Shown piece after piece: positions 5,551-19,813 of a stretch of DNA of 62,500 bases. The notes under the pieces were generated by a model that worked only from the letters and a program-made list of their open reading frames with translations, did not search any database and had not been told where the DNA came from. The stretch comes from Cryomorphaceae bacterium (lineage in GTDB: Bacteria; Bacteroidota; Bacteroidia; Flavobacteriales; Flavobacteriaceae): positions 1 through 62,500 of the forward strand of contig QOPV01000009.1 in the NCBI GenBank assembly GCA_003331265.1, given 5' to 3'. A program made the position numbers and the translations under genes. The number at the start of each line of letters is the position of its first letter. The stretch's first letter is position 1.

Positions 5551-6393
5551 ATGATAAAAAAAACTGAATTTACTCTTTCTATATCCTTGTTTTTACTTTT
5601 TTTTGTAAACCAAGTTTATTCACAAAAAATTACAAAAGATTTACCCTTATCAAAAATAATTGATGAAACATCAGGACTAGAAATAGTTGATGATTTGTTT
5701 ATTACACACAACGATTCTGGAGGCGAAGCAAGCGTATATTATTTATCAAAAAAAGGACAAATAGTTGAAAAAAGAAAACTAAAATCTACATCAAATAATG
5801 ATTGGGAAGACATAACAAAAGATGATGAATACTTATATGTTTCTGACTCTGGAAATAACTATAATAATAGAAAAGATTTAAAAATATATAAAGTGCCAAT
5901 CGATAAAAATAGTAATGAAAAAAATCAGACTATTTATTTCAAATATCCTGAACAAGATTCTTTTAAAATCAACAGAAATACTATTTACGATGCTGAAGGA
6001 CTTATTTCTGTAGGAACCAATCTAATTATATTTACAAAAAATAGAGCAAATAAAATAACTGAGCTTTATTCAGTTCCTAAAAAACCCGGAAAATATGATG
6101 CAAAAAAGATTGGCTCTATTAATGTTCAATCTATTGTAACTGGTGCTGATTACAGTGAGAAACATAAAATACTAGCCTTAACTTCAACAAAAAAATTTAA
6201 TAATTATTATTTAATTATAATAAATGATTTTAGTTTAAAAAATCTGAACGATTTAAAAATAGAAACCTACGAAATCCCCATTGGCAAAACTCAAGTAGAA
6301 GCAATTAAAATAATAGATAATAATAACTTTTGGATCACTTCTGAAGACGAAAAAAACTCAAAATCTGCTCGACTAATGAAAATAAAATTATAA
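5551..6393 (+). CDS. exported propeller-like protein of unknown function
   Basis: This encodes 280 residues with a classical signal peptide (hydrophobic stretch to about residue 24, ending VYSQ). The mature part starts with an ETSGL motif, then THNDSGG, NDWEDI and SDSGNN, and continues as repeated beta-strand segments. This order is typical of a widespread Bacteroidota family of exported proteins resembling the SdiA-regulated or esterase-like propeller folds. No catalytic residues can be assigned. It stands alone with its own promoter, and its 3' end overlaps the convergent KDPG aldolase gene by 6 bases. The function is unknown; the extracytoplasmic location is well supported. Confidence 0.75.
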   Translation: MIKKTEFTLSISLFLLFFVNQVYSQKITKDLPLSKIIDETSGLEIVDDLFITHNDSGGEASVYYLSKKGQIVEKRKLKSTSNNDWEDITKDDEYLYVSDSGNNYNNRKDLKIYKVPIDKNSNEKNQTIYFKYPEQDSFKINRNTIYDAEGLISVGTNLIIFTKNRANKITELYSVPKKPGKYDAKKIGSINVQSIVTGADYSEKHKILALTSTKKFNNYYLIIINDFSLKNLNDLKIETYEIPIGKTQVEAIKIIDNNNFWITSEDEKNSKSARLMKIKL

Positions 6394-7020
6394 AATAAGA
6401 TTATTAATTTCTTCACAATTTGAAGAAATTAATTTCCATTTTTTTGAATTAATTAGATGTTTGGGAGCTAACCAGCTTCCGCCAACAGCTAATATTAAAT
6501 TAGAGTCTAAATATTTTTTTACATTAGAAATATTTATTCCACCTAAAGGAATATAATTTAAATTTAAATGTTTATAGGGATTGTTAATCGAGTTTAAATA
6601 TTTAATACCTCCACTATTCTCTGCGGGAAAAAACTTCAAAACATTACATCCGTAATCTAACGAAATTTCAATATCTGTAGGACTACAAATTCCAGGTGAA
6701 AACAATAAATTATTTTTTTTTGCAAGATCAATAATTTTTGGATTACATCCAGGTGCAACTGCAAAACTAACACCTGAATCTATAGCAAATTTAACTTGAT
6801 CTTCATTCAAAACAGTACCTAGACCCACAATGATTTGAGGAAAATTCTTGATTATTTGTTCAGTGGCTTTTTGAGCAACTTCTGTTCTTAAAGCAAGCTC
6901 AATAACGCTAATACCAGAACTTAATAAAGTTTCACATACAGGAGTAACATTCTCCAAAGAATCAATTTCTAAAACTGCAATAACCCTATGTTTTTTTATT
7001 TTTTTAAAAACCTCATGCAT
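6388..7020 (-). CDS. eda: 2-keto-3-deoxy-6-phosphogluconate/galactonate aldolase (KDPG aldolase)
   Basis: This encodes 210 residues, the usual length. The class I aldolase signatures are present: Glu41 in IELALRT, and the Schiff-base Lys129 in VLKFFPAE, followed by a phosphate-binding PLGGI segment near the C-terminus. The reaction splits 2-keto-3-deoxy-6-phosphogluconate, or the galacto epimer, into pyruvate and glyceraldehyde-3-phosphate in the cytoplasm. It is the last gene of the seven-gene minus-strand operon that starts at 15077, 4 bases after the KDG kinase gene, so the two form a kinase-aldolase pair. Preference for gluco or galacto substrate cannot be read from sequence. The galacto form would fit the anhydrogalactose reading of the operon. 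Confidence 0.93.
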   Translation of the reverse strand: MHEVFKKIKKHRVIAVLEIDSLENVTPVCETLLSSGISVIELALRTEVAQKATEQIIKNFPQIIVGLGTVLNEDQVKFAIDSGVSFAVAPGCNPKIIDLAKKNNLLFSPGICSPTDIEISLDYGCNVLKFFPAENSGGIKYLNSINNPYKHLNLNYIPLGGINISNVKKYLDSNLILAVGGSWLAPKHLINSKKWKLISSNCEEINNLIL

Positions 7021-7024
7021 TCAA

Positions 7025-8050
7025 CTATCTTTTAATATGTCCCGAATAATTTTTAGATGAAAAATCTGTAATATCATCTTCATCAAAATAATTTACATCT
7101 CCTTTAATGGTTTGTGTCAATGCGAAACAAGCATTTGCAAAGCTTATTATTTCATCATTTTTAAAATTATTAATTAGGCCATGTAAAAGTCCTGAAACAA
7201 ACGCGTCTCCACCACCAAGTCTATCTATAATTTCTAAATTATAAGATCTTCCAAAGTAATATTTATCATTAACTTTAATAATTCCTCCTAATTGATTATG
7301 TGTTGCATGTATTTGATTTCTAATAGTCATTCCTATCATATCAAAAGAATATTTATTTGAGATAAATTCACAAGCACTCTTGGTAATTGATTCTAGTTCT
7401 GAAAAATCATTAGAATTCTTGTGCTCAAAACCAAAAATATCAGAGACAGAACCGACGTTTCCAATCAAAATATCAACATCATTGATAATTTTAGAAATAA
7501 ACTTTAAAGCTTCAGTTCCTGACCATAGGTTGCGTCTGAAGTTTAAATCAAAAACAATTTTTACTTTGTTTGATTTGGCAATCTTAATGGAGTTAAGAAT
7601 ATTTTTTTGACATTCATTTGAAAGTGCCGGAGTTATTCCAGTTATAACATAAAAGTCGGAATCTTTAAAAGCTTTTGACCAAATTGTTTCTTTTATAATT
7701 TCAAAACAAAAACAACTATCTAATCTGTCGTAAATAACTTTTCCTCCTCTTATTGAAGTACCATGCTCGATGTAATAAGAACCTATTCTGCCATCTTTAA
7801 ATTTAATGTAATCAGTATTTACACCAAAACTATTCAAAAAACGACAGGCTGATTTTCCTAAAGAATTCTTTGGAAGTGAAGTAATCATGGTAGTGTTATG
7901 ACCTAAATTAGAAAGGCCAGAAATTATATTACTTTCTGCTCCTGCAAATGACATATTCAAAGCTGAAGATTGATCAATCAAATCCCCATGAACAAGCGGA
8001 GTTAATCTTAAAAGTACTTCACCATATGCAATTATATTATTTTTAATCAA
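7025..8050 (-). CDS. kdgK: 2-keto-3-deoxygluconate/galactonate kinase (PfkB family)
   Basis: This encodes 341 residues of the ribokinase/PfkB family. It has an N-terminal GEVLLRL substrate-binding segment, and the C-terminal signature DRLGGGDAF with catalytic Asp282. It phosphorylates 2-keto-3-deoxy sugar acids at C6 using ATP to feed the adjacent aldolase. The match to KDG kinases rather than fructokinases rests on the N-terminal segment and on the context: the aldolase gene follows 4 bases downstream. It lies 10 bases after the RhaT-like permease gene. The epimer preference is unknown. Confidence 0.88.
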   Translation of the reverse strand: MIKNNIIAYGEVLLRLTPLVHGDLIDQSSALNMSFAGAESNIISGLSNLGHNTTMITSLPKNSLGKSACRFLNSFGVNTDYIKFKDGRIGSYYIEHGTSIRGGKVIYDRLDSCFCFEIIKETIWSKAFKDSDFYVITGITPALSNECQKNILNSIKIAKSNKVKIVFDLNFRRNLWSGTEALKFISKIINDVDILIGNVGSVSDIFGFEHKNSNDFSELESITKSACEFISNKYSFDMIGMTIRNQIHATHNQLGGIIKVNDKYYFGRSYNLEIIDRLGGGDAFVSGLLHGLINNFKNDEIISFANACFALTQTIKGDVNYFDEDDITDFSSKNYSGHIKR

Positions 8051-8060
8051 AATTATATTT

Positions 8061-9068
8061 TTAAACTGTACTTCCTAATCCTAAAACTATAGCAGAAAAT
8101 ATAAGTACTATTAATCCTATCAATAGTAAATTAAAAGGTTTTTTTGCGTTTTTCCATTCACCAGCTCTGTAAGCCCAAAAATTGCTAATTATTAAAGATA
8201 AACCCAGTAAAATGGGCCAACCTATAACAGGCCCTATATCACCTAACAAAGCAGCTCCTTGACCATAAACACCTAAGGCAGCAAACCAACACAAACCAGC
8301 AATTACAGACCATCTGTATGCTTTAAATGAATTTATCGGATTAAAACTGTTCCATGAATTATTTTTAAATAATAAATAAACACAATACAATGCATTCATT
8401 AAAAAAGCCCCCCACAGAACAACAACCCAAGCAACCAAGCTAGAATTTCTAGTTATAACTCCAAAGTCTTCTGCAGTTTTTGCAATAGGAGCAGCATTAG
8501 AAAACCCTACATTTAAAAGAGCCGATAGAACGCCACAAACTACAGCAATTAAAATCCCTTTGATAATATTTGATTTATTATTAGAATCATTCGAATTTTG
8601 TAATTTGTCTCTATCTATTCCTGCTTTTGCAGTGAGGGCAACACCAACTAAAGAAATTAAAAGACCACCCAGAACATAAGAAAAAACAGGATCACTTGTT
8701 GAGTTAGAGCCTTGAAAAAATGGAATTAAGCTTCCAACAGAACCGGCTAAACCCATAACTATACCCATTGTAAGTGACAATCCAATGTAAGGAACACTAA
8801 CTCCAAACATAATACCACCTATTCCCCATAAAAACCCATAAAGCATTGCCATCTGAATAGATTCAACTGGAGATGATGAAATTATATCAAATAAATTAGG
8901 AACAACAATAATTGCCCATAAAAAAGGAAATATTATCATGGCAATAGTAACATGAATAAGCCACCATGCTTCCCATGATAGAGGAGACATATATTTCATT
9001 CCTAGACCAAAAGATCCCTGAAAAAAACTTGCAAAAATCAGTAAAACAAAAGGTAAAAGTAATTCCAT
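8061..9068 (-). CDS. RhaT-like sugar:proton symporter
   Basis: This encodes 335 residues with about ten hydrophobic membrane spans and no signal peptide. Glycine-rich helices (GFLWGIGGIMFG, MGLAGSVGSLIPF) and the overall spacing match the L-rhamnose/proton symporter family, part of the drug/metabolite transporter superfamily. It should import a monosaccharide across the inner membrane. The operon has no rhamnose isomerase, rhamnulokinase or rhamnulose-1-phosphate aldolase, so rhamnose may not be the cargo. A 6-deoxy or anhydro sugar related to the other enzymes is an alternative. The gene sits between the aldehyde dehydrogenase (22-base gap) and the KDG kinase (10-base gap). Confidence 0.85.
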   Translation of the reverse strand: MELLLPFVLLIFASFFQGSFGLGMKYMSPLSWEAWWLIHVTIAMIIFPFLWAIIVVPNLFDIISSSPVESIQMAMLYGFLWGIGGIMFGVSVPYIGLSLTMGIVMGLAGSVGSLIPFFQGSNSTSDPVFSYVLGGLLISLVGVALTAKAGIDRDKLQNSNDSNNKSNIIKGILIAVVCGVLSALLNVGFSNAAPIAKTAEDFGVITRNSSLVAWVVVLWGAFLMNALYCVYLLFKNNSWNSFNPINSFKAYRWSVIAGLCWFAALGVYGQGAALLGDIGPVIGWPILLGLSLIISNFWAYRAGEWKNAKKPFNLLLIGLIVLIFSAIVLGLGSTV

Positions 9069-9090
9069 AATTATTTTATTTAATTTAATA

Positions 9091-10530
9091 TTATATAGCT
9101 ATACTTACTCTTTTTTTTGATAAATAATCTTCAAGAGCATAATGTGAACAATCGTGTCCTAATCCACTATCTTTTACCCCGCCATGTGGCAAATAAATAG
9201 CATATTTAATTCCATTGACTTGAACCTCACCAAAATCTAAATTTTTAGAAAAATATTCAATTCTGTCCTTGTCCTTAGTAAACAAATAGGAAGCGAGCCC
9301 ATATTTAGTGTCATTAGCTAAAGTTAAAACTTCATTTTCATGATCAAATGACATAATACATGCTACTGGTCCAAAAATTTCTTCCTTGTAAATTTTCATT
9401 TTACTATTAACATTACTCAGTACAGTAGGTTCTAGCCAATAACCTTTTTTAAATTTTTCAGGGATATTTCCTCCAGTCTCTACATGTGCTCCGTTATTAA
9501 CGGCATCTTTAACTAAATTCATAATTCGTTTTCTTGCTTGAAAATTAATTAGTGGACCCATATCAACTTTTTCATTTTTACCAAAACCTAATTTTATTTT
9601 ATTTACCCTCTCTACATATGCCTTTAAGAATGAGTCAAAAATATTTTTATGTATAAAAAAACGATTAGCCGCCACACATATTTGCCCTGAATTTCCAAAC
9701 TTTATTCCAATTGCTAAATCTAATGCGGCTTCAAAATCTGCATCATCAAAAACTATAAAAGGGGCGTTTCCGCCAAGTTCCATACTTAATTTTTTAATTG
9801 ACGTGGTACTATCAGCAATTACTCTTTTACCTGTGTTGGTGGAGCCTATCATAGTAACTAATCTAGGAATGGTACTTTTTGATAATGTTGTAGCAACTTG
9901 CTCAGGGTCCCCACATAAAATATTGACAACACCTGCTGGAAAATTAATATCGTGAAGAATTTTTCCTAATATGTAGGCAGAAACTGGGGAAGATTCAGAT
10001 GGTTTTATAATTATACTACATCCAGAAGCCAAAGCAGGACCAATTTTAAAAGCTACATTTAATAATGGAAAGTTCCAAGCTAAATAAGCAACCGCTACTC
10101 CTACTGGTGAATAAACCATTGAATGAGTATGTGTGTTTTCTTCATCATCAATATTTATATTTTGAAAATGAGTCTTCATTGCTTTTGGATAAAAATTTAA
10201 GCTATTGATCAAAGCTTCTATATCCTCATGTGATGCTTCATAAGTCTTTCCCATTTCAAACATTATGGCTGTTCTTAAAATTTCTTCATTTTTCAAAACA
10301 GCATCCCTTAATTTACTAATCCAATCAGTCCTTTTCTCTAATGTAAAAGAAGACCAGTTTTTAAAACCCACTTGAGCAGCATCTAAAGCCAATTCAGAAT
10401 CTACAGAACTAGCCCAAGCTATATTTGCAATTACTGATTCATTCGCAGGACATATAATTTTTTTTGTGGACTTGTCTTGTGAATCCAAAAGCTTTCCTCC
10501 AATGTACATTTTCAAGTTTCCAAAGTCCAT
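9091..10530 (-). CDS. NAD(P)-dependent aldehyde dehydrogenase; candidate 3,6-anhydrogalactose dehydrogenase
   Basis: This encodes 479 residues, the standard ALDH length, with no signal peptide. Active-site residues are Asn153 in AWNFP, Glu251 in MELGG and the nucleophile Cys285 in SGQICVA; the cofactor-binding IKPSESSP is near 175. By family it could be a lactaldehyde, succinate-semialdehyde or sugar aldehyde dehydrogenase. Context favours a sugar aldehyde: it lies 3 bases after an acid-sugar dehydratase/cycloisomerase-type gene and upstream of KDG kinase and aldolase. That is the order of reactions known for 3,6-anhydrogalactose, which is oxidised at C1 by an ALDH-family enzyme. The alternative, lactaldehyde dehydrogenase for a deoxysugar pathway, is not excluded. 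Family certain, substrate inferred. Confidence 0.9.
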   Translation of the reverse strand: MDFGNLKMYIGGKLLDSQDKSTKKIICPANESVIANIAWASSVDSELALDAAQVGFKNWSSFTLEKRTDWISKLRDAVLKNEEILRTAIMFEMGKTYEASHEDIEALINSLNFYPKAMKTHFQNINIDDEENTHTHSMVYSPVGVAVAYLAWNFPLLNVAFKIGPALASGCSIIIKPSESSPVSAYILGKILHDINFPAGVVNILCGDPEQVATTLSKSTIPRLVTMIGSTNTGKRVIADSTTSIKKLSMELGGNAPFIVFDDADFEAALDLAIGIKFGNSGQICVAANRFFIHKNIFDSFLKAYVERVNKIKLGFGKNEKVDMGPLINFQARKRIMNLVKDAVNNGAHVETGGNIPEKFKKGYWLEPTVLSNVNSKMKIYKEEIFGPVACIMSFDHENEVLTLANDTKYGLASYLFTKDKDRIEYFSKNLDFGEVQVNGIKYAIYLPHGGVKDSGLGHDCSHYALEDYLSKKRVSIAI

Positions 10531-10533
10531 AAA

Positions 10534-11661
10534 TTAAATTTTAAAATGATTTAACTTTTCTTCATCTATATCTACACCTATACCTGGACTAGTAGGCACA
10601 TCAATATAACCATCTTTTAAAACAAGTTTTGGAATAATTAATTCTTCTCTTATACTGTTTTCTGTCTGATCATATTCAATATACAAATCCTTTTCAACTA
10701 GCCGTATTGGGTTAGGTTCTATATTGGCAATAAAATTCAGAGCAACATAAATGCCCAGTCCAGATCCCCATGTATGAGGAATTATATCAATTCCGTACAA
10801 AGATGCTAGAGATGAAATCTTTTTTGCTTCACTCAGTCCTCCACATGAACATATATCGGGCTGAATAATATCAACCGATTTATTTTCTAATAATTGATGA
10901 AAACCATATCTTAAATATTCGCACTCACCAGCAGAAACAGGAATCGAAGTTTTTTCTCTCAGTTCTTTATATTGTTTATAATACTCAGGTGACATTGGTT
11001 CTTCAAACCAAGAAATATCATATTTTTCCATTTTTTTTGATAATTCTATTGATTCTATTAGAGAATAAGCATGATTTGCATCTACCATGAGTTTTATATC
11101 ATTTCCAATAACTTTCCTAACATATTTAATATTCTTTAAATCGACTTCAATTCCCAAACCGATTTTCATTTTAATAGCTTTAAATCCCCTATTTAAATAA
11201 TCCATCAGCTCTATTTCAAAGTTTTTTGATGGGTTTTCTATAGAGGAAAAATACAAACCGGTAGCATAAGGCTTAATTTTATTTCTGAAAGCTCCTCCTA
11301 ACAATGTACTAACTGGTAAATTCAGAGATTTACCTTTTAAGTCCCATACTGCTATGTCAATAGCACTTACAGAAGCCATCAGAACTCCTTTTCTAGCATA
11401 ATCTAATGTTCTAGCATACATTTTAGACCATATCACATCATTATCAATTATTTTCATTCCAATTAAAATTGGTTTCAAAAATTCTATTCCTTCTTTGACA
11501 ATATTTGCTGGACCATAACCCTCTCCCCATCCATAATTACCATCATCAGTTGTGATTTTAACCAAACAACATGTCCTTTCATTGTATTGCCACTGTGAAA
11601 AGAAAAAACTTTTAGAAAGCTTGTCTCTAACAATAAAAGTTTCTATTTTTTTTATGTTCAT
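10534..11661 (-). CDS. enolase-superfamily (mandelate racemase type) enzyme; candidate 3,6-anhydrogalactonate cycloisomerase
   Basis: This encodes 375 residues. The capping domain occupies about 1-125 and the barrel 130-375. Barrel residues are visible: KxK at Lys164/Lys166, metal ligands Asp194 (VDANHAY), Glu220 (FEEP) and Glu246 (AGECE), then Asp269 and His296 (PHTWGSG) as the mandelate racemase-type dyad. The set is complete, so the enzyme should be active on a sugar acid, either as a dehydratase or as a cycloisomerase that opens an anhydro ring to a 2-keto-3-deoxy acid. The product would be the KDG kinase substrate. It follows the beta-helix gene by 2 bases. Galactonate, rhamnonate or fuconate dehydratase are the main alternatives. 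Confidence 0.88.
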   Translation of the reverse strand: MNIKKIETFIVRDKLSKSFFFSQWQYNERTCCLVKITTDDGNYGWGEGYGPANIVKEGIEFLKPILIGMKIIDNDVIWSKMYARTLDYARKGVLMASVSAIDIAVWDLKGKSLNLPVSTLLGGAFRNKIKPYATGLYFSSIENPSKNFEIELMDYLNRGFKAIKMKIGLGIEVDLKNIKYVRKVIGNDIKLMVDANHAYSLIESIELSKKMEKYDISWFEEPMSPEYYKQYKELREKTSIPVSAGECEYLRYGFHQLLENKSVDIIQPDICSCGGLSEAKKISSLASLYGIDIIPHTWGSGLGIYVALNFIANIEPNPIRLVEKDLYIEYDQTENSIREELIIPKLVLKDGYIDVPTSPGIGVDIDEEKLNHFKI

Positions 11662-11663
11662 TT

Positions 11664-13307
11664 TTAATTCAACTCAATAGCACCTAAGTCTGGTAGATCT
11701 TTAATTTTATTTCCTAAAATATCAAATTCCACATTTAAACCTCCTTTAAGCCCGATACTGTCATTGTAAATGTTGTTTATAACTACTCCTTTGTCCTTTA
11801 TCAGTTTATTATTTAGAGGAATGTAATTTGAAATTTTTTCTCCACCTCCATTTTTAAAGTTTGCGTTCCCAAATAAGCTATTTAAAGGCTGAATTAAAAC
11901 ATCTTTTGGCCAGTATGAATCCTTTAGAAATAAATTATTCTCAAAAAAAACATTTTTAATTTTATTCCCTCCTCCCTTATCTGGTCTGTACTGATCTCCA
12001 AGAACAAATTCACTATCACCTTCAATATGAAAAATATTATTAGCAACTAAAACACCATTAGAAGCCTTATCAACAGCAATTTTTGAAATAATATCTTCCT
12101 TTACATATATAGTGTTATTGTAAATATAGCTATTAAAAGGTCCATTTCTTTCCCTTCCCCCTCCTATAAAACCACTTAACCAAAAAGTTTTTCCCTCTTG
12201 AAAAGCATTGTTTTGACCTTTAATTCTATGCCCATCATTAACACTAATGTTGTATCTATAAGAACAATTATAATTATTACCTAAAATCTCTATAAATCCA
12301 CCTGCGTTTCCAACACTCAAATTATGTTGAATTATAACATTATCACAATTAAAATCAATATGAACACCGGCAGAATCAGCTGGTCCATTAGCATACATAA
12401 ATGAATTTTTTTCAATTAAAACATTAGAAGACCCCCAAGTCCATAATCCACTCCCTCTTCCCCACTTCCTGGAATCATCGGGACTTCCAGAGAATTTTAC
12501 CTCATTTCCATAAACATGTAAATCTTCAACCCTACTAAACTGAATACTTGGACCCCCAGTTCTTAAAAGCCTATTGTTGGACACCTCAATATTTTTAAAT
12601 CTATTTCCAATTGATGAAGTCATTTTAATTCCTGTATGACCTACATTTTCTATAAAACAATTAGAAACAATTATGTCTTCAATTGAGCCACTTTGACTTG
12701 AATTAAAAAATCTAATACCAAAACCATATGCTTGGGTACCCATAGAAGTTCTCACCTCACTTGGATCTCTTTTAAAACCTAAATCTTCAAAGAAAACATT
12801 AGAAACAATAACATTGTCAATTAAAATATTTTTAAAAATTTTCTTTTTACTGACATTAACTAAAATACCAGCTCTCATTATCGCTTTATCGGTAATCTTA
12901 TTTGTAGATAAATTTTCATATTCCTCAATTACACCTCCTCCATTTGCTGTAACCTGAATATTTGTAACGGAAATATTTGATGAATTTTCAATATAAACCC
13001 CAGCAATATGACCCTTAGAATTTATAATTGGATAAGTTTTTTCTTGATTATTATAATTGGAAATATGAATATCATTTTTATCAATTAATTTTATATTCCC
13101 AGAGAAGTAAGATCCATTAGAAAGCAAAATACTATCTCCTGAATTGAAATCAATTTCATTTATTTTATTCAATGTTCTGAAAGGCTTTTCAGAGGATATT
13201 CCCTGATTCAAATCACTTCCATTAACCGAATCAAAGTAATAAGTAGCTGAGATTGCACTATTTTGGGATGAAATAAAAAAAAGTAATAATGAGAAAATTT
13301 TAAACAT
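11664..13307 (-). CDS. exported right-handed parallel beta-helix protein (putative polysaccharide-active enzyme), soluble paralog
   Basis: This encodes 547 residues. The signal peptide is about residues 1-20 (cleavage near AISA), giving a soluble periplasmic or secreted protein. It starts with the segment TYYFDSVNGSD then GDSILLSNGSYF, typical of pectate-lyase-like beta-helices, followed by many short strands with stacked Asn/Ile/Val pairs. The core has a highly conserved block shared with the next gene: RGSGLW, HIDF, then GGFIEILG and YRYNIS. The ends differ from the paralog. Such folds include polysaccharide lyases and glycosidases (iota-carrageenases of GH82 are one example), but the motif does not identify a family. 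The protein lacks a type IX tail. Operon position suggests it releases the sugar that the downstream enzymes degrade. Confidence 0.85.
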   Translation of the reverse strand: MFKIFSLLLFFISSQNSAISATYYFDSVNGSDLNQGISSEKPFRTLNKINEIDFNSGDSILLSNGSYFSGNIKLIDKNDIHISNYNNQEKTYPIINSKGHIAGVYIENSSNISVTNIQVTANGGGVIEEYENLSTNKITDKAIMRAGILVNVSKKKIFKNILIDNVIVSNVFFEDLGFKRDPSEVRTSMGTQAYGFGIRFFNSSQSGSIEDIIVSNCFIENVGHTGIKMTSSIGNRFKNIEVSNNRLLRTGGPSIQFSRVEDLHVYGNEVKFSGSPDDSRKWGRGSGLWTWGSSNVLIEKNSFMYANGPADSAGVHIDFNCDNVIIQHNLSVGNAGGFIEILGNNYNCSYRYNISVNDGHRIKGQNNAFQEGKTFWLSGFIGGGRERNGPFNSYIYNNTIYVKEDIISKIAVDKASNGVLVANNIFHIEGDSEFVLGDQYRPDKGGGNKIKNVFFENNLFLKDSYWPKDVLIQPLNSLFGNANFKNGGGEKISNYIPLNNKLIKDKGVVINNIYNDSIGLKGGLNVEFDILGNKIKDLPDLGAIELN

Positions 13308-13319
13308 AATTTTTTTAAA

Positions 13320-15077
13320 TTAAGAGCCGTTATAAGCCCCAATATTTGGTTTTTCAGAGTTTGAGACTGAATTACCAAAATAATCTTTTCCTCCGTTATT
13401 TTGAATGAAATTACTAGTATTTGTACTTCCGTTAATTAAAATACCTTTGCCAATTGCTGGACTATCTGCTTGCAATTTGTAATCATTTGGATCGGAGGAA
13501 CCGGGGTTTATAAGTTTTGGATCAACAAAAATTTCACTTGAGTGATGTTGAAAAGCAGTATTAGGGTCAATATTAACAGAACCAAAATATAAATTATTTC
13601 TGAAAAAATTTAAATCCGAATCATTATTAGTTAATATGCTAAGGGACGCACCACTATCAATATATATTAAATTATTGTAGACAAAAGTATCTTCAGTATT
13701 TTCTCTTATTAGTACATCAGGTGTCATTGGACTATTTGTAACAGGATTTGTACTTGGAACAAACACCGTGTTATTGTATATGAAATTATTTTTAGAGCCT
13801 ATCTTCCTACTATTTGATCCAGCAAAATCTGAAACCCAAAAAATCTTTCCATTATGGGCACCTGTTCTAGTCCCATCTCCAATACTTATATTATACCTGT
13901 AACCACAATCTAAATTCTCTCCTAAAATTTCAACAAAACCACCAAAATTATTTTTGCTCAAACAATATTGAATAACAACTCTTTCATTTCCCCAATCAAT
14001 ATGGGCACCAAAAGAATCTTGAACTCCATAAGCGTCTTCAAAAGTACTATTCTGGACAATTGCATCATTACAGGTATAGAACCATAACCCACTTCCTCTC
14101 TCCCACATTCTACTATCTTTAGTAGAACCTGTTCCTTTAAAAGTTGAATTTTCCACTAAAATATTTTTTGATCTTGCGAATACAATTCCTGAACCGCCAG
14201 TATCATAAAAACTAGAATTTGTTATAGAAATATTTCTATGATAAAAATCTGCCTGTGCGCCAGACATTCTGTTAACAATGTGGATTCCATAATGACCTGT
14301 TAAACTTATATCAACATTATCAATTGTGATTCCATCGAAATAATTTAATTCTCCATCGTTGTAAGATTCAAATCGCATCCCATAACCTTGATGATTATAT
14401 GATTGTTCACTAGGTGTAGGGTATATGTTTGAAATTTTTACATTAGAAACTTTTAAATGATTAATGTTTTTTCCTGCACCAAATCTCAATGCTAGAATGC
14501 CATACCTTTCATCTTGACCAGTTCTACTTGAACCGCTCATAAGCTTTACAGAATTATCAGATTTTTTATGAGAAGCCTCGTTTTTAAATTCCAGATTATT
14601 TACCTCAATATATTCTACATTTTCTAAAAATAAAGATGCCTGATAACCATTTCCATCAATTATTGGTTTACTAGAACTCCCATAACTTTCAATAGTTATT
14701 GGACTAGAAGAACTCCCAGACCCTCTAACTTTAAAATATCCCTTCCACGTATCACCAGTTTTAAATTTAATTTTGTCACCAGGAGCAAAAGTTATACTAT
14801 TTATTTTACCTAAATTTTTAAACGCATTAGATTCAGACTTTCCATCTTTTGAGTCATCACCATCAGAAAAACTAATATAGTACGTTGTGTCACCACTTGA
14901 TGAAGAGTCGGTATATTTATCTGGATCTGTTTCACCATCCGTGTTTCCCCCAGTATTTCCACCATTATTCCCTCCTCCGTTGTTCCCTCCTCCTCCAACA
15001 ACATCACCTCCGTCACTAGCACCTGATGAACAGCCAATTATAAATAATATCGATATTAAAAGAAGTTTATATTTCAT
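13320..15077 (-). CDS. surface-type lipoprotein with right-handed parallel beta-helix (paralog of the next gene)
   Basis: This encodes 585 residues. The lipobox FIIGC places the lipidated Cys at 16. A low-complexity Gly/Asn/Asp/Thr tether of about 40 residues follows, then the beta-helix from about 65 to the end (TYYISFSDGDD, GDKIKFKTGDTW, then stacked strands). The conserved block RGSGLW, AHIDW, GGFVEILG, CGYRYNIS matches the gene at 11664, so the two arose by duplication. The tether would hold the catalytic body away from the membrane, which suggests action on polymer at the cell surface; orientation is inferred. It is the first gene of the seven-gene minus-strand operon. No known lyase or GH family could be assigned by eye. 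Confidence 0.85.
   Translation of the reverse strand: MKYKLLLISILFIIGCSSGASDGGDVVGGGGNNGGGNNGGNTGGNTDGETDPDKYTDSSSSGDTTYYISFSDGDDSKDGKSESNAFKNLGKINSITFAPGDKIKFKTGDTWKGYFKVRGSGSSSSPITIESYGSSSKPIIDGNGYQASLFLENVEYIEVNNLEFKNEASHKKSDNSVKLMSGSSRTGQDERYGILALRFGAGKNINHLKVSNVKISNIYPTPSEQSYNHQGYGMRFESYNDGELNYFDGITIDNVDISLTGHYGIHIVNRMSGAQADFYHRNISITNSSFYDTGGSGIVFARSKNILVENSTFKGTGSTKDSRMWERGSGLWFYTCNDAIVQNSTFEDAYGVQDSFGAHIDWGNERVVIQYCLSKNNFGGFVEILGENLDCGYRYNISIGDGTRTGAHNGKIFWVSDFAGSNSRKIGSKNNFIYNNTVFVPSTNPVTNSPMTPDVLIRENTEDTFVYNNLIYIDSGASLSILTNNDSDLNFFRNNLYFGSVNIDPNTAFQHHSSEIFVDPKLINPGSSDPNDYKLQADSPAIGKGILINGSTNTSNFIQNNGGKDYFGNSVSNSEKPNIGAYNGS
14934..14996 (-). repeat. low-complexity Gly/Asn linker-coding repeat
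   Basis: Twenty-one codons for Gly, Asn, Thr and Asp (residues 28-48 of the lipoprotein) form imperfect repeats of GG-NN and GG-NT units. The strand opposite reads as a proline-rich ORF, which is a shadow. Such tracts are prone to slippage, so linker length may vary between strains. Confidence 0.6.
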
Positions 15078-15122
15078 AAATAATTATTAAAATATAAATT
15101 TAAAAAATAATAGTTTATTAAA

Positions 15123-15161
15123 TGAGGTTATATAAATCATCTTTTGAATAATTTAACCTCA
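15123..15161. promoter_or_regulatory. 8-bp inverted repeat in the divergent promoter region (candidate operator)
   Basis: TGAGGTTA at 15123-15130 and its exact reverse complement TAACCTCA at 15154-15161 are separated by 23 bases, with arm centres 31 bases apart, near three DNA turns. The repeat lies between the beta-helix operon (start 15077) and the sulfatase-GH2 operon (start 15204). Poor -7 boxes flank it: TAAATTTA at 15095-15102 for the minus strand and TACTTTTA at 15182-15189 for the plus strand, each one mismatch from TAnnTTTG. It could be a binding site for a dimeric regulator controlling both operons. No regulator gene is nearby. The arms stand out for being GC-richer than the surrounding AT-rich DNA. 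Confidence 0.4.
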
Positions 15162-15203
15162 GAAAAAATAGTTAAATACTATACTTTTATAAAAAATATT
15201 AAA

Positions 15204-16874
15204 ATGATAAATAAAAATAAAATTGTTTTCCTTATTTCAATTTGTCTTTCATTTTTTGTTATTTCTTGTAATACTATTAAAAGTCCTCCAAATGTTGTGC
15301 TAATTATGGTTGATGATTTAAATGATTATCCTGAAATTTTCAATGGTCATCCACAAGCCAAAACTCCTAATATCAAAAAATTAGCGTCCTCTGGTGTTTC
15401 ATTCCTTAAAGCCTACTCAAATGATCCGATGTGTGGACCCTCAAGAGCCAGTATGATAACTGGCGTTTATCCTCATAACTCCGCTAACTTTTGGCAAGAA
15501 TCATGGCTCAAAAACGAAGTGCTTTCAAACACTAAAACAATCATGGAGAAATTCAAAGAGAATGGATACGACGTGATAGGGAGTGGAAAAATTTTACATC
15601 ACAATAAAAAAGAGATATGGTCTGAATTTAAACACAATGCTGATTATGGACCAGTTGCATATAAGGGAAAACATGAAAAAGGAAAAAAAGGGGTTGCACA
15701 TCCTGATGTACCTAAACCTTTTAGGGAAATAGGTCAAATAGATGGGTCTTTTGGTCCCTTTAAAAATTTAAAGAATATAAAAATAGATGGAGAGCAGCTT
15801 TCTTGGGCTTACGGTGGGTCAAGAGGATATAAAAAATTCAAATATAACAGTGAAGAAGATAGAGATTTAACCCCAGATGAAATCAATGCTCAATGGGCTG
15901 AGGATAGACTAAATAAGCTTGCTAAATCCAATATTGACAAACCTTTTTTCTTAGCAGTTGGATTTCTTAGACCGCATACACCTCTTGTAGCTCCACAAAA
16001 ATATTTTGATATGTATCCCTTGGAAGATATTCAACTAGCCAATATACTAGAAAATGATAAAGACGATACTTTTAGAAACTATGATAGCTTAATTGAAAAA
16101 GACAGTGAATATTCTAGCTCAAACACACTTACTCATAAAAATTTAAAAAAACGGTGGATTAGAATGTTTTACGATCTTGAAGAATCCTATAAAGATCCCG
16201 AAGAGGGACTTCGAAGGTTTACTCAGGCTTACCTTGCCTGTGTTTCCGCGGTTGATGATAATATAGGGCAAGTAATGAACGCAATAGACAACTCAAAATT
16301 AAAAGATAATACAATAGTTATTCTTGTGAGTGATCACGGATGGACAATGGGCGAAAAGGATCATGTATACAAAAACTCTCTTTGGGAAGAAAGTACCAGA
16401 GTGCCAATGAGTATAAGGGCCCCTGGAATCTCTAAACCAAATTCAAAAGTAGAACACCCTGTTTCGTTAATTGACATTTACCCCACACTTCTTGATTTAG
16501 CTGATCTTGATAATAAAACTGCAAAAAATCAAAAAGGAAAATCCCTAGATGGACATAGCTTAAGACCATTTTTAGAAGACCCCGACACTAAAGATTGGAA
16601 TGGTCCTAAAGGTGCACTATCAGTGGTCTACTCATCTGATAAAAATAAAAACAATACTGCAAATCACCATTATTCACTTAGAACAAAGGATTGGAGGTAT
16701 ATAATTTACGATTCTGGAAACGAGGAACTCTATAACAACAATTCAGACCCCAAAGAATGGAATAACTTATTATACAATAAAACACATCCTAAAAGAAATG
16801 AAATGGTCGAAATTTTAAAAGAAATGACTTATCCAATGGTTCCTAATGGTCTTAAAGTTTTAAATAAAAATTAA
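15204..16874 (+). CDS. exported sulfatase (family S1, iduronate-2-sulfatase-like), lipoprotein
   Basis: This encodes 556 residues from the ATG at 15204. The longer reading from 15144 adds 20 residues ahead of a proper signal peptide and would cross the inverted repeat, so it was rejected. The lipobox VISC puts the lipidated Cys at 22. Metal ligands Asp37-Asp38 lie in VDDLND. The formylglycine signature CGPSR puts the modified cysteine at 77, and the C-terminal half has DHGW and a KDHVYK-type substrate segment. The VDDLND...GHPQAKTPN pattern resembles the S1_7 / iduronate-2-sulfatase group, which removes sulfate esters from algal and animal glycans. Subfamily assignment by eye is tentative. 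It lies 2 bases ahead of the GH2 gene. No maturase (FGE or anSME) is in the window. Confidence 0.92.
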   Translation: MINKNKIVFLISICLSFFVISCNTIKSPPNVVLIMVDDLNDYPEIFNGHPQAKTPNIKKLASSGVSFLKAYSNDPMCGPSRASMITGVYPHNSANFWQESWLKNEVLSNTKTIMEKFKENGYDVIGSGKILHHNKKEIWSEFKHNADYGPVAYKGKHEKGKKGVAHPDVPKPFREIGQIDGSFGPFKNLKNIKIDGEQLSWAYGGSRGYKKFKYNSEEDRDLTPDEINAQWAEDRLNKLAKSNIDKPFFLAVGFLRPHTPLVAPQKYFDMYPLEDIQLANILENDKDDTFRNYDSLIEKDSEYSSSNTLTHKNLKKRWIRMFYDLEESYKDPEEGLRRFTQAYLACVSAVDDNIGQVMNAIDNSKLKDNTIVILVSDHGWTMGEKDHVYKNSLWEESTRVPMSIRAPGISKPNSKVEHPVSLIDIYPTLLDLADLDNKTAKNQKGKSLDGHSLRPFLEDPDTKDWNGPKGALSVVYSSDKNKNNTANHHYSLRTKDWRYIIYDSGNEELYNNNSDPKEWNNLLYNKTHPKRNEMVEILKEMTYPMVPNGLKVLNKN

Positions 16875-16876
16875 TT

Positions 16877-19813
16877 ATGAAAAAATTAAATTTGATAGTA
16901 ATTCTTATCACCATGATTTCTTTTTCTCAAGAAAGAGATAATCATATTTCATTAAATGGAGAATGGGAAATTATATATGATTTAGAAAATGAGGGTCGTG
17001 AAAATCAAATCCATACAATAAAAGGATTTGATAAATTTAATTCTGAGAAAATTCAAGTTCCTAGTGGCTGGGAGGAATATAAGAAAGATTATGAGGGAGT
17101 TGTTTATTATAAAAAAACTTTCAGCATTTCAGAAGAGTTAAGAGACAAAGTAGTTCACCTAAATTTTGATGCAGTAAATTATTTATCTGAAGTATACTTG
17201 AATGACAATGCTCTTGGATATCATGAAGGTGGTTTTTCACCTTTTAAATTTAATATAGAACACGTCTTGAATTTTAAGAAAATCAACACTCTTATATTAA
17301 GAGTTGTAGGTCCTATAACAATACAAAATAAGTCAATTGATGGAATGGGTCAGATGGAAACCCCTCAGTGGCGAGGGTCTTATACCGGAGGAATTTGGCA
17401 AAATGTTTATTTAGAATCGACAGGAAAAATAATGATTGATGATTTATTTATTAAATCTGATATATATAATAATACATCAAATGTAGATTTTAAAATTATT
17501 AATAAAAATAATGATCATAAAAAAGCTACTTTAATTAATAAGATCTATAACAGCCAAGGAATTGAATTAGTATCCAAAAAAACTAATCTATTATTATCTC
17601 CTGGAATAAATAATGTTTTCGATGAAATAAAATTAGATTCAATTAAGTTATGGTCTCCTAACAACCCAAATTTATATAAGCTTAAATCACATTTAAAAAT
17701 AAAAGATAAAATTGAAGATAAAGTTTCTGAAATTTTTGGATTTAGGGAGTTTACAATTAAAAATGAAAAATTTTATTTAAATAACAAACCAATTTATTTA
17801 AAAGCAGCTTTTTTTGAGGGATTATATCCAATAAGGTTGGCATATCCGGACTCTAAGGAAATGGTAATAAAGGAAATTATGATGGCAAAAAAAGCTGGAT
17901 TTAATATGATTAGGCCATGGAGAAAACCACCGCCTCCAATGTGGTTAAAAATAGCTGACTCACTTGGAATTTTAACTGTTGGAAGTATGGCCATAGAGTG
18001 TATGGATATGCCAATAGAAACAGCATATTTACCAAGACGTGTTGAAAATGAAATAACTGAAAGTATTTTGAGAGATAGAAATCATGTTTCAATTGTTCAA
18101 TGGGAATTATTTAATGAAATTAGAAGGCCTGTATTAGCCAACATGCTTAAACCTATGGCGTTAAAAGCTAGGGAATTAGATCCAACTAGAATGATACTGG
18201 ACGAATCTGGGGGTTGGGCTGAAGGTGCAAACCTATTTCTTCCCTATGAAAAAGTCCCAACTAAATTTAATGATATTCACAACTATCCAGGGCCAAATAT
18301 TAATAAAAATAAATTTGATGGCTTTTTAACTATTGGAAATACAAAAGAAGAAAATATTCAACAACAACTTTTTGCAAGAACTCCAGGAAGAAATGTTATG
18401 CCAAACCTCCCCTCATATGTCTCAGAAATTGGATATGGAAGTTTACCGAACCTTGAAGATAACGAACAAAAATTTAAAGAAAAAGGAAATCCTATAACCT
18501 ACCCCTACTTATACCACATTAAATATAATAAAGAAATTAAAAAAGCATTAATTAAAACAGGACTTAATAAAATATTTAAAAAGACAGAGGATTTTTATAA
18601 ACTTCAACAAAAAGTTCACGGAATAGCTAATAAAAGAATGATAGAAGCTATAAGATCTAATCCAAGTATAATTGGTTATTGTGTACACGCATTAACAGCT
18701 GGAGATTGGGTAATTGGAGCAGGATTATTAGACTTGTGGAGAAACCCCAAAGGAGAGGCATATTATAAAACAAAAGAAGCCAATCAAGAAAAATTAATAG
18801 TTATTAGAACTGATAAAAGAAACTATTATAAAAATGAAAATATAACTTTAAATTTTATTGGAATAAACGAAAACAACAGCGAAAATATCAATTTAGATAT
18901 CAAAATTTACAAAGGAAAAAGAATAGTTTATAAAAAAAATCAAACTAAAATTCTGAAAAAAGGAGTTATCAATTTATTTGAAATTTCATTTGACAACTTT
19001 GGTTCTGGTGATTATAGAATTGTTGCTGATATATTAGATAATAAAAAAAACATTATGAATTCTTCAAGAACATTCAGTGTATTTAATGAACTGAAAAGTA
19101 AAAAAGAGTTGAAGGTGGCTGTTCTCAAAGAAGACAAAAAAATTATTAATTTTTTGAATCGAAATAAAATAAGTTATGTAAAATTTGACAAAGAAATTTC
19201 AAAAAATATTCCAGTTCTAATTTTTGATAATAAACTTATTGATAAATCTTCAAAAGATGGAAATATAATAGCTGAGTCCTCAAGTAACAATAGCATTTTT
19301 AATAGAACTGTAAAGGAAATAAACGAGTTTGTTTCTATTGGTGGAAATGCAATATATATAAATACACCTGCCAGAATAATTAGAAGAACAGGTGAAAATT
19401 TAACATTTCAAATTGAGGGAGAAAAAGTATTACCAATGGATCCTGTAAAAAACATCTCTCAAGGACTTTGGGATGGGATACTTCATATTAATAAAAAACA
19501 CCCTATTTTTAAAGGTCTCCCTGTAAATATTCCTCTTACTGATTTATATGAAAATATTGGACCAACTGTTAGTTTTAGAGATTTAAAAGGTGAAAATATA
19601 GTTCAAACAATAGCATTTGATAGGATTCCAAATGGTAACATCATGAAAAGAAATTATATTGGTTCAGGAGATGTGTGGTCAGGTTCTGACCTTTCTATTG
19701 TAGACTACAATAATGGAAAAATGCTATTATCAACTTTGAAACTATATGAAAATATTGGATTAGACCCCGTAGCTGACAAAATTCTTTTTAATATTATAAA
19801 TTACTTTAATTAA
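16877..19813 (+). CDS. exported glycoside hydrolase family 2 enzyme (beta-galactosidase/glucuronidase type)
   Basis: This encodes 978 residues with a signal peptide ending near SFS-Q (about residue 17). Domain order: jelly-roll sugar-binding domain (about 20-185, with the GH2-like LNGEWE start and PSGWEEY), Ig-like domain (190-290), then a TIM barrel from about 295. The acid/base is Glu414 in LFNE. A likely nucleophile is Glu517 in SEIGYG, about 100 residues later. A C-terminal extension of about 350 residues contains an Ig-like stretch and a Rossmann-like glutamine-amidotransferase-type domain (about 745-900). GH2 enzymes remove terminal galactose, glucuronate or mannose; the sugar cannot be read here. 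Co-transcription with a sulfatase suggests exo-trimming of sulfated oligosaccharides. Confidence 0.9.
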   Translation: MKKLNLIVILITMISFSQERDNHISLNGEWEIIYDLENEGRENQIHTIKGFDKFNSEKIQVPSGWEEYKKDYEGVVYYKKTFSISEELRDKVVHLNFDAVNYLSEVYLNDNALGYHEGGFSPFKFNIEHVLNFKKINTLILRVVGPITIQNKSIDGMGQMETPQWRGSYTGGIWQNVYLESTGKIMIDDLFIKSDIYNNTSNVDFKIINKNNDHKKATLINKIYNSQGIELVSKKTNLLLSPGINNVFDEIKLDSIKLWSPNNPNLYKLKSHLKIKDKIEDKVSEIFGFREFTIKNEKFYLNNKPIYLKAAFFEGLYPIRLAYPDSKEMVIKEIMMAKKAGFNMIRPWRKPPPPMWLKIADSLGILTVGSMAIECMDMPIETAYLPRRVENEITESILRDRNHVSIVQWELFNEIRRPVLANMLKPMALKARELDPTRMILDESGGWAEGANLFLPYEKVPTKFNDIHNYPGPNINKNKFDGFLTIGNTKEENIQQQLFARTPGRNVMPNLPSYVSEIGYGSLPNLEDNEQKFKEKGNPITYPYLYHIKYNKEIKKALIKTGLNKIFKKTEDFYKLQQKVHGIANKRMIEAIRSNPSIIGYCVHALTAGDWVIGAGLLDLWRNPKGEAYYKTKEANQEKLIVIRTDKRNYYKNENITLNFIGINENNSENINLDIKIYKGKRIVYKKNQTKILKKGVINLFEISFDNFGSGDYRIVADILDNKKNIMNSSRTFSVFNELKSKKELKVAVLKEDKKIINFLNRNKISYVKFDKEISKNIPVLIFDNKLIDKSSKDGNIIAESSSNNSIFNRTVKEINEFVSIGGNAIYINTPARIIRRTGENLTFQIEGEKVLPMDPVKNISQGLWDGILHINKKHPIFKGLPVNIPLTDLYENIGPTVSFRDLKGENIVQTIAFDRIPNGNIMKRNYIGSGDVWSGSDLSIVDYNNGKMLLSTLKLYENIGLDPVADKILFNIINYFN

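Follow-up and report, generated by a model that had tools for sequence, protein, structure and literature searches.

The carrageenan polysaccharide utilization locus (PUL) of Zobellia galactanivorans, ZGAL_3145-3159, carries dauD, dauC, dauA, dauB and a DMT sugar/H+ symporter gene in one contiguous run, and the enzymes named there for the release of anhydrogalactose are GH127 (DagA) and DagB (passages of PMC5698469). Carrageenan clusters of Pseudoalteromonas and Colwellia echini hold anhydrogalactose pathway genes without the glycoside hydrolase (GH) families GH127 and GH129, and the relevant passages of PMC6923384, PMC6952198 and PMC12549532 give the release enzyme of these bacteria as not known, the last in the words 'an unknown beta-neocarrabiosidase'; candidates named in print for strain PS47 are beta-propeller proteins. 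Here we describe a compact island at positions 6388-19813 of a 62,500-nucleotide stretch of DNA (the window; positions 1 to 62,500 of contig QOPV01000009.1, assembly GCA_003331265.1, called C43 here) from a draft genome of a Cryomorphaceae bacterium of the Flavobacteriaceae. We are highly confident that the island encodes the Dau route for the D-form (carrageenan-type) of 3,6-anhydrogalactose, as predicted from sequence. The Dau gene set is already known; what we propose to be new is a conserved pair of GH136-like beta-helix proteins, bhA and bhB, encoded beside the Dau operon.

Like the Zobellia PUL (gene set ZGAL_3153-3157), the island combines dauA, dauB, a kinase, an aldolase, a DMT symporter and sulfatases. 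Every named gene is an open reading frame (ORF) at its position and all nine are assigned to a family above the Pfam curated cut-off, which bears out the operon and the opposing sulfatase and GH2 genes of a preliminary description of this sequence:

6388-7020, minus strand: 2-keto-3-deoxy-6-phosphogalactonate (KDPG-type) aldolase (Pfam Aldolase; NCBIfam TIGR01182 above cut-off)
7025-8050, minus strand: PfkB-type kinase (Pfam PfkB; NCBIfam KDG/KDGal kinases below cut-off)
8061-9068, minus strand: RhaT-type (DMT) sugar/H+ symporter (Pfam RhaT; counterpart ZGAL_3157; 60% identity to the copy in Zobellia genome G022)
9091-10530, minus strand: predicted DauA, 3,6-anhydro-D-galactose dehydrogenase of the aldehyde dehydrogenase (ALDH) family (best PDB match 6pnu/6pop; tree)
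10534-11661, minus strand: predicted DauB, 3,6-anhydro-D-galactonate cycloisomerase of the MR/MLE enolase superfamily (best PDB match 5olc; tree; catalytic residues)
11664-13307, minus strand: beta-helix B (bhB), exported paralog of bhA, D311/D318 (identity to bhA; member of profile A2)
13320-15077, minus strand: beta-helix A (bhA), exported, GH136-related, putative retaining glycosidase, D354/D361 (Pfam Beta_helix; GH136 profile match; AlphaFold2 and Foldseek; invariant Asp pair; lipobox-like signal by eye)
15144-16874, plus strand: exported S1 sulfatase with a CGPSR motif (Pfam Sulfatase; PDB matches; sequence)
16877-19813, plus strand: exported GH2 enzyme of 978 residues (Pfam over residues 25-450; PDB matches; in other taxa, 42-45% relatives lie next to dau or beta-helix genes)

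The seven minus-strand genes form an operon with intergenic gaps of 2-22 bases, and the sulfatase and GH2 genes face it from the plus strand, 66 bases separating bhA from the sulfatase. Because this gene order is conserved across related genomes, it is not a product of chance. The draft genome (79.9% complete) amounts to 1.53 Mb on 43 contigs; its named near relatives are marine-type drafts labelled Flavobacteriaceae or 'Cryomorphaceae', such as BACL29 and MED-G14.

Assignment of the Dau steps relies on sequence and tree comparison with enzymes characterised in print. The best PDB match of the enolase-superfamily protein is 5olc (492 bits), which is DauB, ZGAL_3156 (in the cited part of PMC5698469), ahead of 4ggb (298 bits) and the L-form cycloisomerase 5xd7 (153 bits). 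Its active site is intact, as had been read from the sequence earlier: the general base, acid and metal ligands K166, H296, D194, E220 and E246 are retained and, together with D87 and W298, correspond to the residues listed for AtGCI/DauB. The ALDH-family protein matches 6pnu/6pop best (519 bits, the next match reaching 333); 6PNU stands in the entry list of the paper on the P. fuliginea DauA structure (that part of PMC6923384), and from its name, aldehyde dehydrogenase, we infer that it is the DauA among that paper's entries. In the trees, whose outputs both warn of long branches among the outgroups, the window protein joins that of Zobellia genome G022 in a DauB clade of 30 of 46 rows (support 93/91) with Escherichia coli DgoD and RhmD outside, and in a DauA clade of 15 of 20 rows (support 100/100) with AldA, GabD, PatD, BetB and PuuC outside. 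We regard G022 as Z. galactanivorans or a genome nearly identical to it because its DagB matches PDB 5opq with 1567 bits over 693/693 residues. Both trees had been set beforehand as checks, and grouping with DauA rather than AldA, and with DauB rather than RhmD or DgoD, supports the anhydrogalactose catabolism first proposed while narrowing it to the D-form. The families of the 2-keto-3-deoxygalactonate kinase and the 2-keto-3-deoxy-6-phosphogalactonate aldolase are present in the operon, but not as close versions of those in the G022 cluster.

The two beta-helix proteins are exported, as the preliminary description held, but it had missed their kinship with GH136 and their catalytic pair. They are paralogs with 29% identity over 565 columns. 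A profile built from 49 beta-helix relatives, bhB included (profile A2), matches the GH136 lacto-N-biosidases in the PDB, over full length for 5gqc (E 5e-51), 24mr and 7v6i. The six top Foldseek matches of the AlphaFold2 model of bhA (predicted local distance difference test score, pLDDT, 92; predicted template modelling score, pTM, 0.93) are all GH136 chains, with template modelling (TM) scores by query of 0.54-0.71 and about 20% identity in the structural alignment. In ErLnb136 the acid/base is D568 and the nucleophile D575 (passages of PMC7335108). D354 and D361 of bhA align with the DxxxxxxD of 6kqs and 5gqc and are the sole Asp pair of that spacing in the aligned 6kqs stretch; their link to D568/D575 is by this seven-residue spacing, the chain count and the paper's numbering being off by two. 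The pair is invariant in 49/49 profile rows (positions 311 and 318 in bhB), and so are its surroundings in the profile A2 alignment. The NCBIfam LnbX model matches 47/49 family members, the bhA match being N-terminal only and far below cut-off, and no GH136-I partner was seen in the operon by a Pfam scan in which no GH136-I model was looked for. By profile, and for bhA also by predicted structure, the two proteins are GH136-related, while not filed as GH136, and they are probably retaining glycosidases. With the lacto-N-biosidases LnbX, ErLnb136 and TnX they share the beta-helix fold, a full-length profile match and an Asp acid/base and nucleophile seven residues apart; those enzymes act on milk sugar, whereas the genomic context of bhA and bhB is that of a sulfated galactan. 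A third, distant member of the family (26% identity to bhA) is encoded on contig C10 of the same genome (L040:4287-5726), with no dau gene in its 20 kb stretch, and a similar one occurs on contig C3 of G015.

Linkage between this pair and the dau genes is consistent within the genus. Among the 22 genus genomes sampled (G000-G021), DauB at 54% identity or more is found in seven, and the identical seven hold both beta-helix genes. bhA and bhB are adjacent in 7/7. In six genomes they are immediately upstream of dauB and part of its run; in G019 they are encoded on the opposite strand, some 2.4 kb separating bhA from dauB. This co-occurrence is that of one inherited island and counts as linkage, not as seven events. 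Two of the islands (L036 in G016 and L033 in G018) contain a dauB only 54% identical and from another tree branch, a dauA of 59-60% and a bhA of 79-83%, an apparent exchange of catabolic genes with another lineage inside an otherwise matching island that retained its beta-helix genes. More widely, we examined 79 named loci with a bhA relative, the best of 187 stretches (5.6-21.8 kb long, genes further off lying outside the view). Nineteen have a bhA of at least 61% identity, several being the genus genomes again; dauA lies within the stretch in 19/19 and dauB in 17/19, the two others (L071 and L072) having dauB elsewhere in the genome. Of the 60 more distant loci, three have dauA within the stretch, and two of these three share a contig. 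In Carboxylicivirga sediminis (G099) a single 20 kb stretch contains an AraC-type regulator, dauA, the symporter, dauB, GH2, a GH78-like gene, aldolase, kinase, sulfatases and a beta-helix gene. Pontiella sulfatireligans (L094), which grows on kappa- and iota-carrageenan (in the cited part of PMC7356697), Draconibacterium aestuarii (L109) and a Prolixibacteraceae draft (L085) have beta-helix genes together with a window-like sulfatase (46-50%) and GH2 (42-44%), with no dau gene within the stretch. Pfam families in the neighbourhoods of the distant relatives (GH43, GH2, GH78-like, a Glyco_hydro_cc protein, sulfatases, SusC/SusD, an SSF transporter and an AraC regulator) indicate no single substrate. 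DauB was found in 6/395 class genomes as a rough background and in 12/46 beta-helix genomes outside the closest group, samples that differ in taxa and habitat.

The preliminary description held that the island lacks known release enzymes. Searches of the 79.9% complete draft indeed gave neither GH127 (E 1e-30) nor DagB (GH129-like; E 1e-10), but contig C23 carries one weak partial GH127 match (18.7 bits, or 34.4 with its neighbours in frame). None of the seven island-bearing genus genomes has a strong GH127, a DagB or a GH78-like gene (E 1e-10). The comparison was then extended to 30 genomes in which DauB reaches E 1e-110 or better. Seven belong to the genus and three to the family (all from a set of 60 relatives), six come from the 395 class genomes, and the remaining 14 are among 48 genomes to which a beta-helix locus had led. 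GH127 scores at least 281 bits in 15/30, with distant matches in G019 (173 bits) and G103 (123 bits) and a weak partial one, under the threshold of this search, in G000, and DagB is present in 4/30, all with strong GH127. The beta-helix profile reaches at least 600 bits in 15/15 genomes without strong GH127, eight of which were found via the beta-helix gene. In the 15 genomes with strong GH127, it does so in six (all found via the beta-helix gene), scores 464 bits in G485, where the gene has an internal stop, and 154 and 127 bits in G298 and G392, and has no match at E 1e-30 in the remaining six. If we consider the 16 genomes sampled independently of the beta-helix gene, at least 600 bits is reached in 7/7 without strong GH127 and in 0/9 with it (one at 464). 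The seven being one genus, this inverse pattern is suggestive only.

A GH78-like gene adjoins dauB and GH2 in several Bacteroidota and, beyond the genus, is another candidate for the release of anhydrogalactose. It is strong (>600 bits) in 9/30 DauB genomes and weak in four, with no match at E 1e-10 in the seven genus genomes, G060, G061 and G092. As a general release enzyme it was rejected, being strong in 9/30 only and without a match in 10/15 genomes lacking strong GH127. In those ten the GH136-like pair is the sole remaining candidate among the families tested genome-wide, GH2 standing outside these tests. The GH78-like protein itself is conserved at about 830-870 residues, encoded next to dauB-GH2 in L084 (6856-9468) and L186 (9036-11528) and beside GH2 in L198 (3415-6018).

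Within the window, a Pfam scan of 49/54 listed ORFs (the five omitted being short frames overlapping or between others) found no SusC, SusD, GH117, GH127 or GH129 and no GH16/GH82 carrageenase, the search for GH117, GH16 and GH82 in this genome being confined to these ORFs. The earlier reading that the island is without SusC/SusD does not extend to the genome. With the dau-side SusD of sister genome G019 as query, matches were obtained in 9/9 genomes searched, including one of 76% in the island's own genome (C25:10447-12171). Contig C25 encodes a GH2 enzyme, a hybrid two-component regulator, SusC, SusD, a PhoD-like protein and a sulfatase; against the genes beside dau in G019 the GH2 is 72% identical (the LacZ-type call was made on the G019 counterpart), the regulator 59%, SusC 79% and SusD 76%. 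In L072 the start of a SusD gene is about 1.4 kb away from where the dau operon ends, and in Z. galactanivorans SusC/SusD are likewise distant from the PUL (ZGAL_3580-3581). By these matches the utilisation system is split rather than reduced, and what had been called a 'reduced or different release step' may be a different one, with a GH136-like pair bearing catalytic Asp residues, rather than a reduced one.

Some features of the island's remaining genes may be recorded here. The CGPSR of the S1 sulfatase fits the CxPxR motif as given in a passage of PMC10958521, and by eye its likelier ATG start lies 60 bases downstream of the called start. In G015 the window-type sulfatase is present in two tandem copies (L027:6108-9442; 80% and 86% to that of the window, which has one). 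Residues 451-978 of the GH2 enzyme, more than half of the protein, have no Pfam match. At window positions 5551-6393, on the strand opposite the operon and overlapping the end of the aldolase gene by six bases, lies the gene of an exported 280-residue protein without a Pfam match, kept at the same place in G015, G016 and G017.

Taken together, these observations make it fairly likely that the island forms the catabolic half of a carrageenan-type system divided over at least two places in the genome. SusC and SusD from C25 would bind and import sulfated galactan oligomers, S1 sulfatases outside the cytoplasm would strip sulfate, GH2 enzymes would take off beta-galactose, and the GH136-like enzymes, with their Asp/Asp retaining machinery, would cut remaining glycosidic bonds, one of them possibly liberating 3,6-anhydro-D-galactose. 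The RhaT-type symporter would then bring the sugar in, DauA would oxidise it, DauB would open the ring to give 2-keto-3-deoxy-D-galactonate, and the PfkB kinase would phosphorylate this product before the aldolase splits it. That the beta-helix pair acts on the same glycan, on carrageenan-type oligosaccharides feeding the Dau route, we consider quite probable. It is a good deal more tentative, and on present evidence rather doubtful, that bhA, bhB or both are GH136-related exo-alpha-1,3-(3,6-anhydro)-D-galactosidases (neocarrabiosidases) in small-genome marine Flavobacteriaceae and some other Bacteroidota without GH127/DagB. With its ring bridged, 3,6-anhydro-D-galactose carries its alpha bond in equatorial position, and machinery for beta bonds could therefore serve it.

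Several findings weigh against this account. GH136 itself cleaves a beta bond and frees a disaccharide (passages of PMC7335108), the seven island-bearing drafts are 62-93% complete, and no GH16/GH82 carrageenase was seen in the examined stretches, whereas the C. echini cluster contains GH16 and other carrageenases. The window kinase, of a different family, has no match to that of G022, and the aldolases are 25% identical. In 57/60 of the more distant beta-helix loci there is no dauA in the stretch, some of these being non-marine by name (e.g. Pedobacter), so that specificity of the family for anhydrogalactose is not sustained; nor is a replacement of GH127 everywhere, as six DauB genomes carry both strong GH127 and strong beta-helix relatives. 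These same six genomes, the occurrence of beta-helix relatives in sulfatase-rich loci without dau, the disaccharide product of GH136 and the separate roles that two paralogs could have also favour a pair acting earlier, cutting a beta bond to release a neocarrabiose-type disaccharide or to shorten the chain, with the window GH2 or an unlinked protein freeing anhydrogalactose. We regard this as a serious possibility that falls somewhat short of an even chance: the ten DauB genomes hold no other candidate among the families tested genome-wide, to which GH2 did not belong, and no window-type GH2 is found in 58/62 kb of the G019 contig that carries the dau and beta-helix genes.

We think it unlikely that release is instead due to an unrelated gene elsewhere, a GH127 or other enzyme lost from the draft or a family outside the search, with the beta-helix proteins merely binding or trimming side groups. 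Incompleteness of the draft would allow it, and in five other genomes that lack strong GH127 the GH78-like gene next to dauB is such a candidate. Against it, none of the seven island-bearing genus genomes has strong GH127 or DagB, and the Asp pair and its surroundings are invariant, as in an enzyme. Very improbable, in our estimation, is that the likeness to Dau is superficial and the island serves another acid-sugar route, of galactonate, rhamnonate or fuconate type or for the L-anhydro sugar of agar. A kinase/aldolase end is shared by several routes, and NCBIfam lists several sugar-acid dehydratases for the enolase-superfamily protein, all below cut-off. However, the rhamnonate, galactonate and lactaldehyde readings were rejected on the DauB and DauA trees, the agar reading was rejected on 153 bits to 5xd7 (which is not in the tree) against 492 to 5olc, and the dauA-dauB-symporter trio is conserved in carrageenan-type clusters with GH127.

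The Zobellia PUL releases anhydrogalactose through GH127 and DagB, whereas the genome studied here has no strong GH127, no DagB and two GH136-like proteins; the Pseudoalteromonas and C. echini clusters resemble it in holding the pathway without GH127/GH129. GH136 is enriched on a Flammeovirga chromosome along with GH82, GH127 and GH167 (in the cited part of PMC8653839), and among the matches listed by our literature search, with subscription papers and preprints outside its scope, there was no report joining GH136 to anhydrogalactose release. A gene pair joined to the Dau operon, in a genus without a strong GH127 or DagB match, is a direct candidate for the release enzyme that several carrageenan degraders lack in print. 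Marine Flavobacteriaceae with drafts of 1.2-1.9 Mb appear to encode anhydrogalactose use, and if the proposed role is true, the GH136 relatives in sulfatase loci of Bacteroidota would have a marine substrate.

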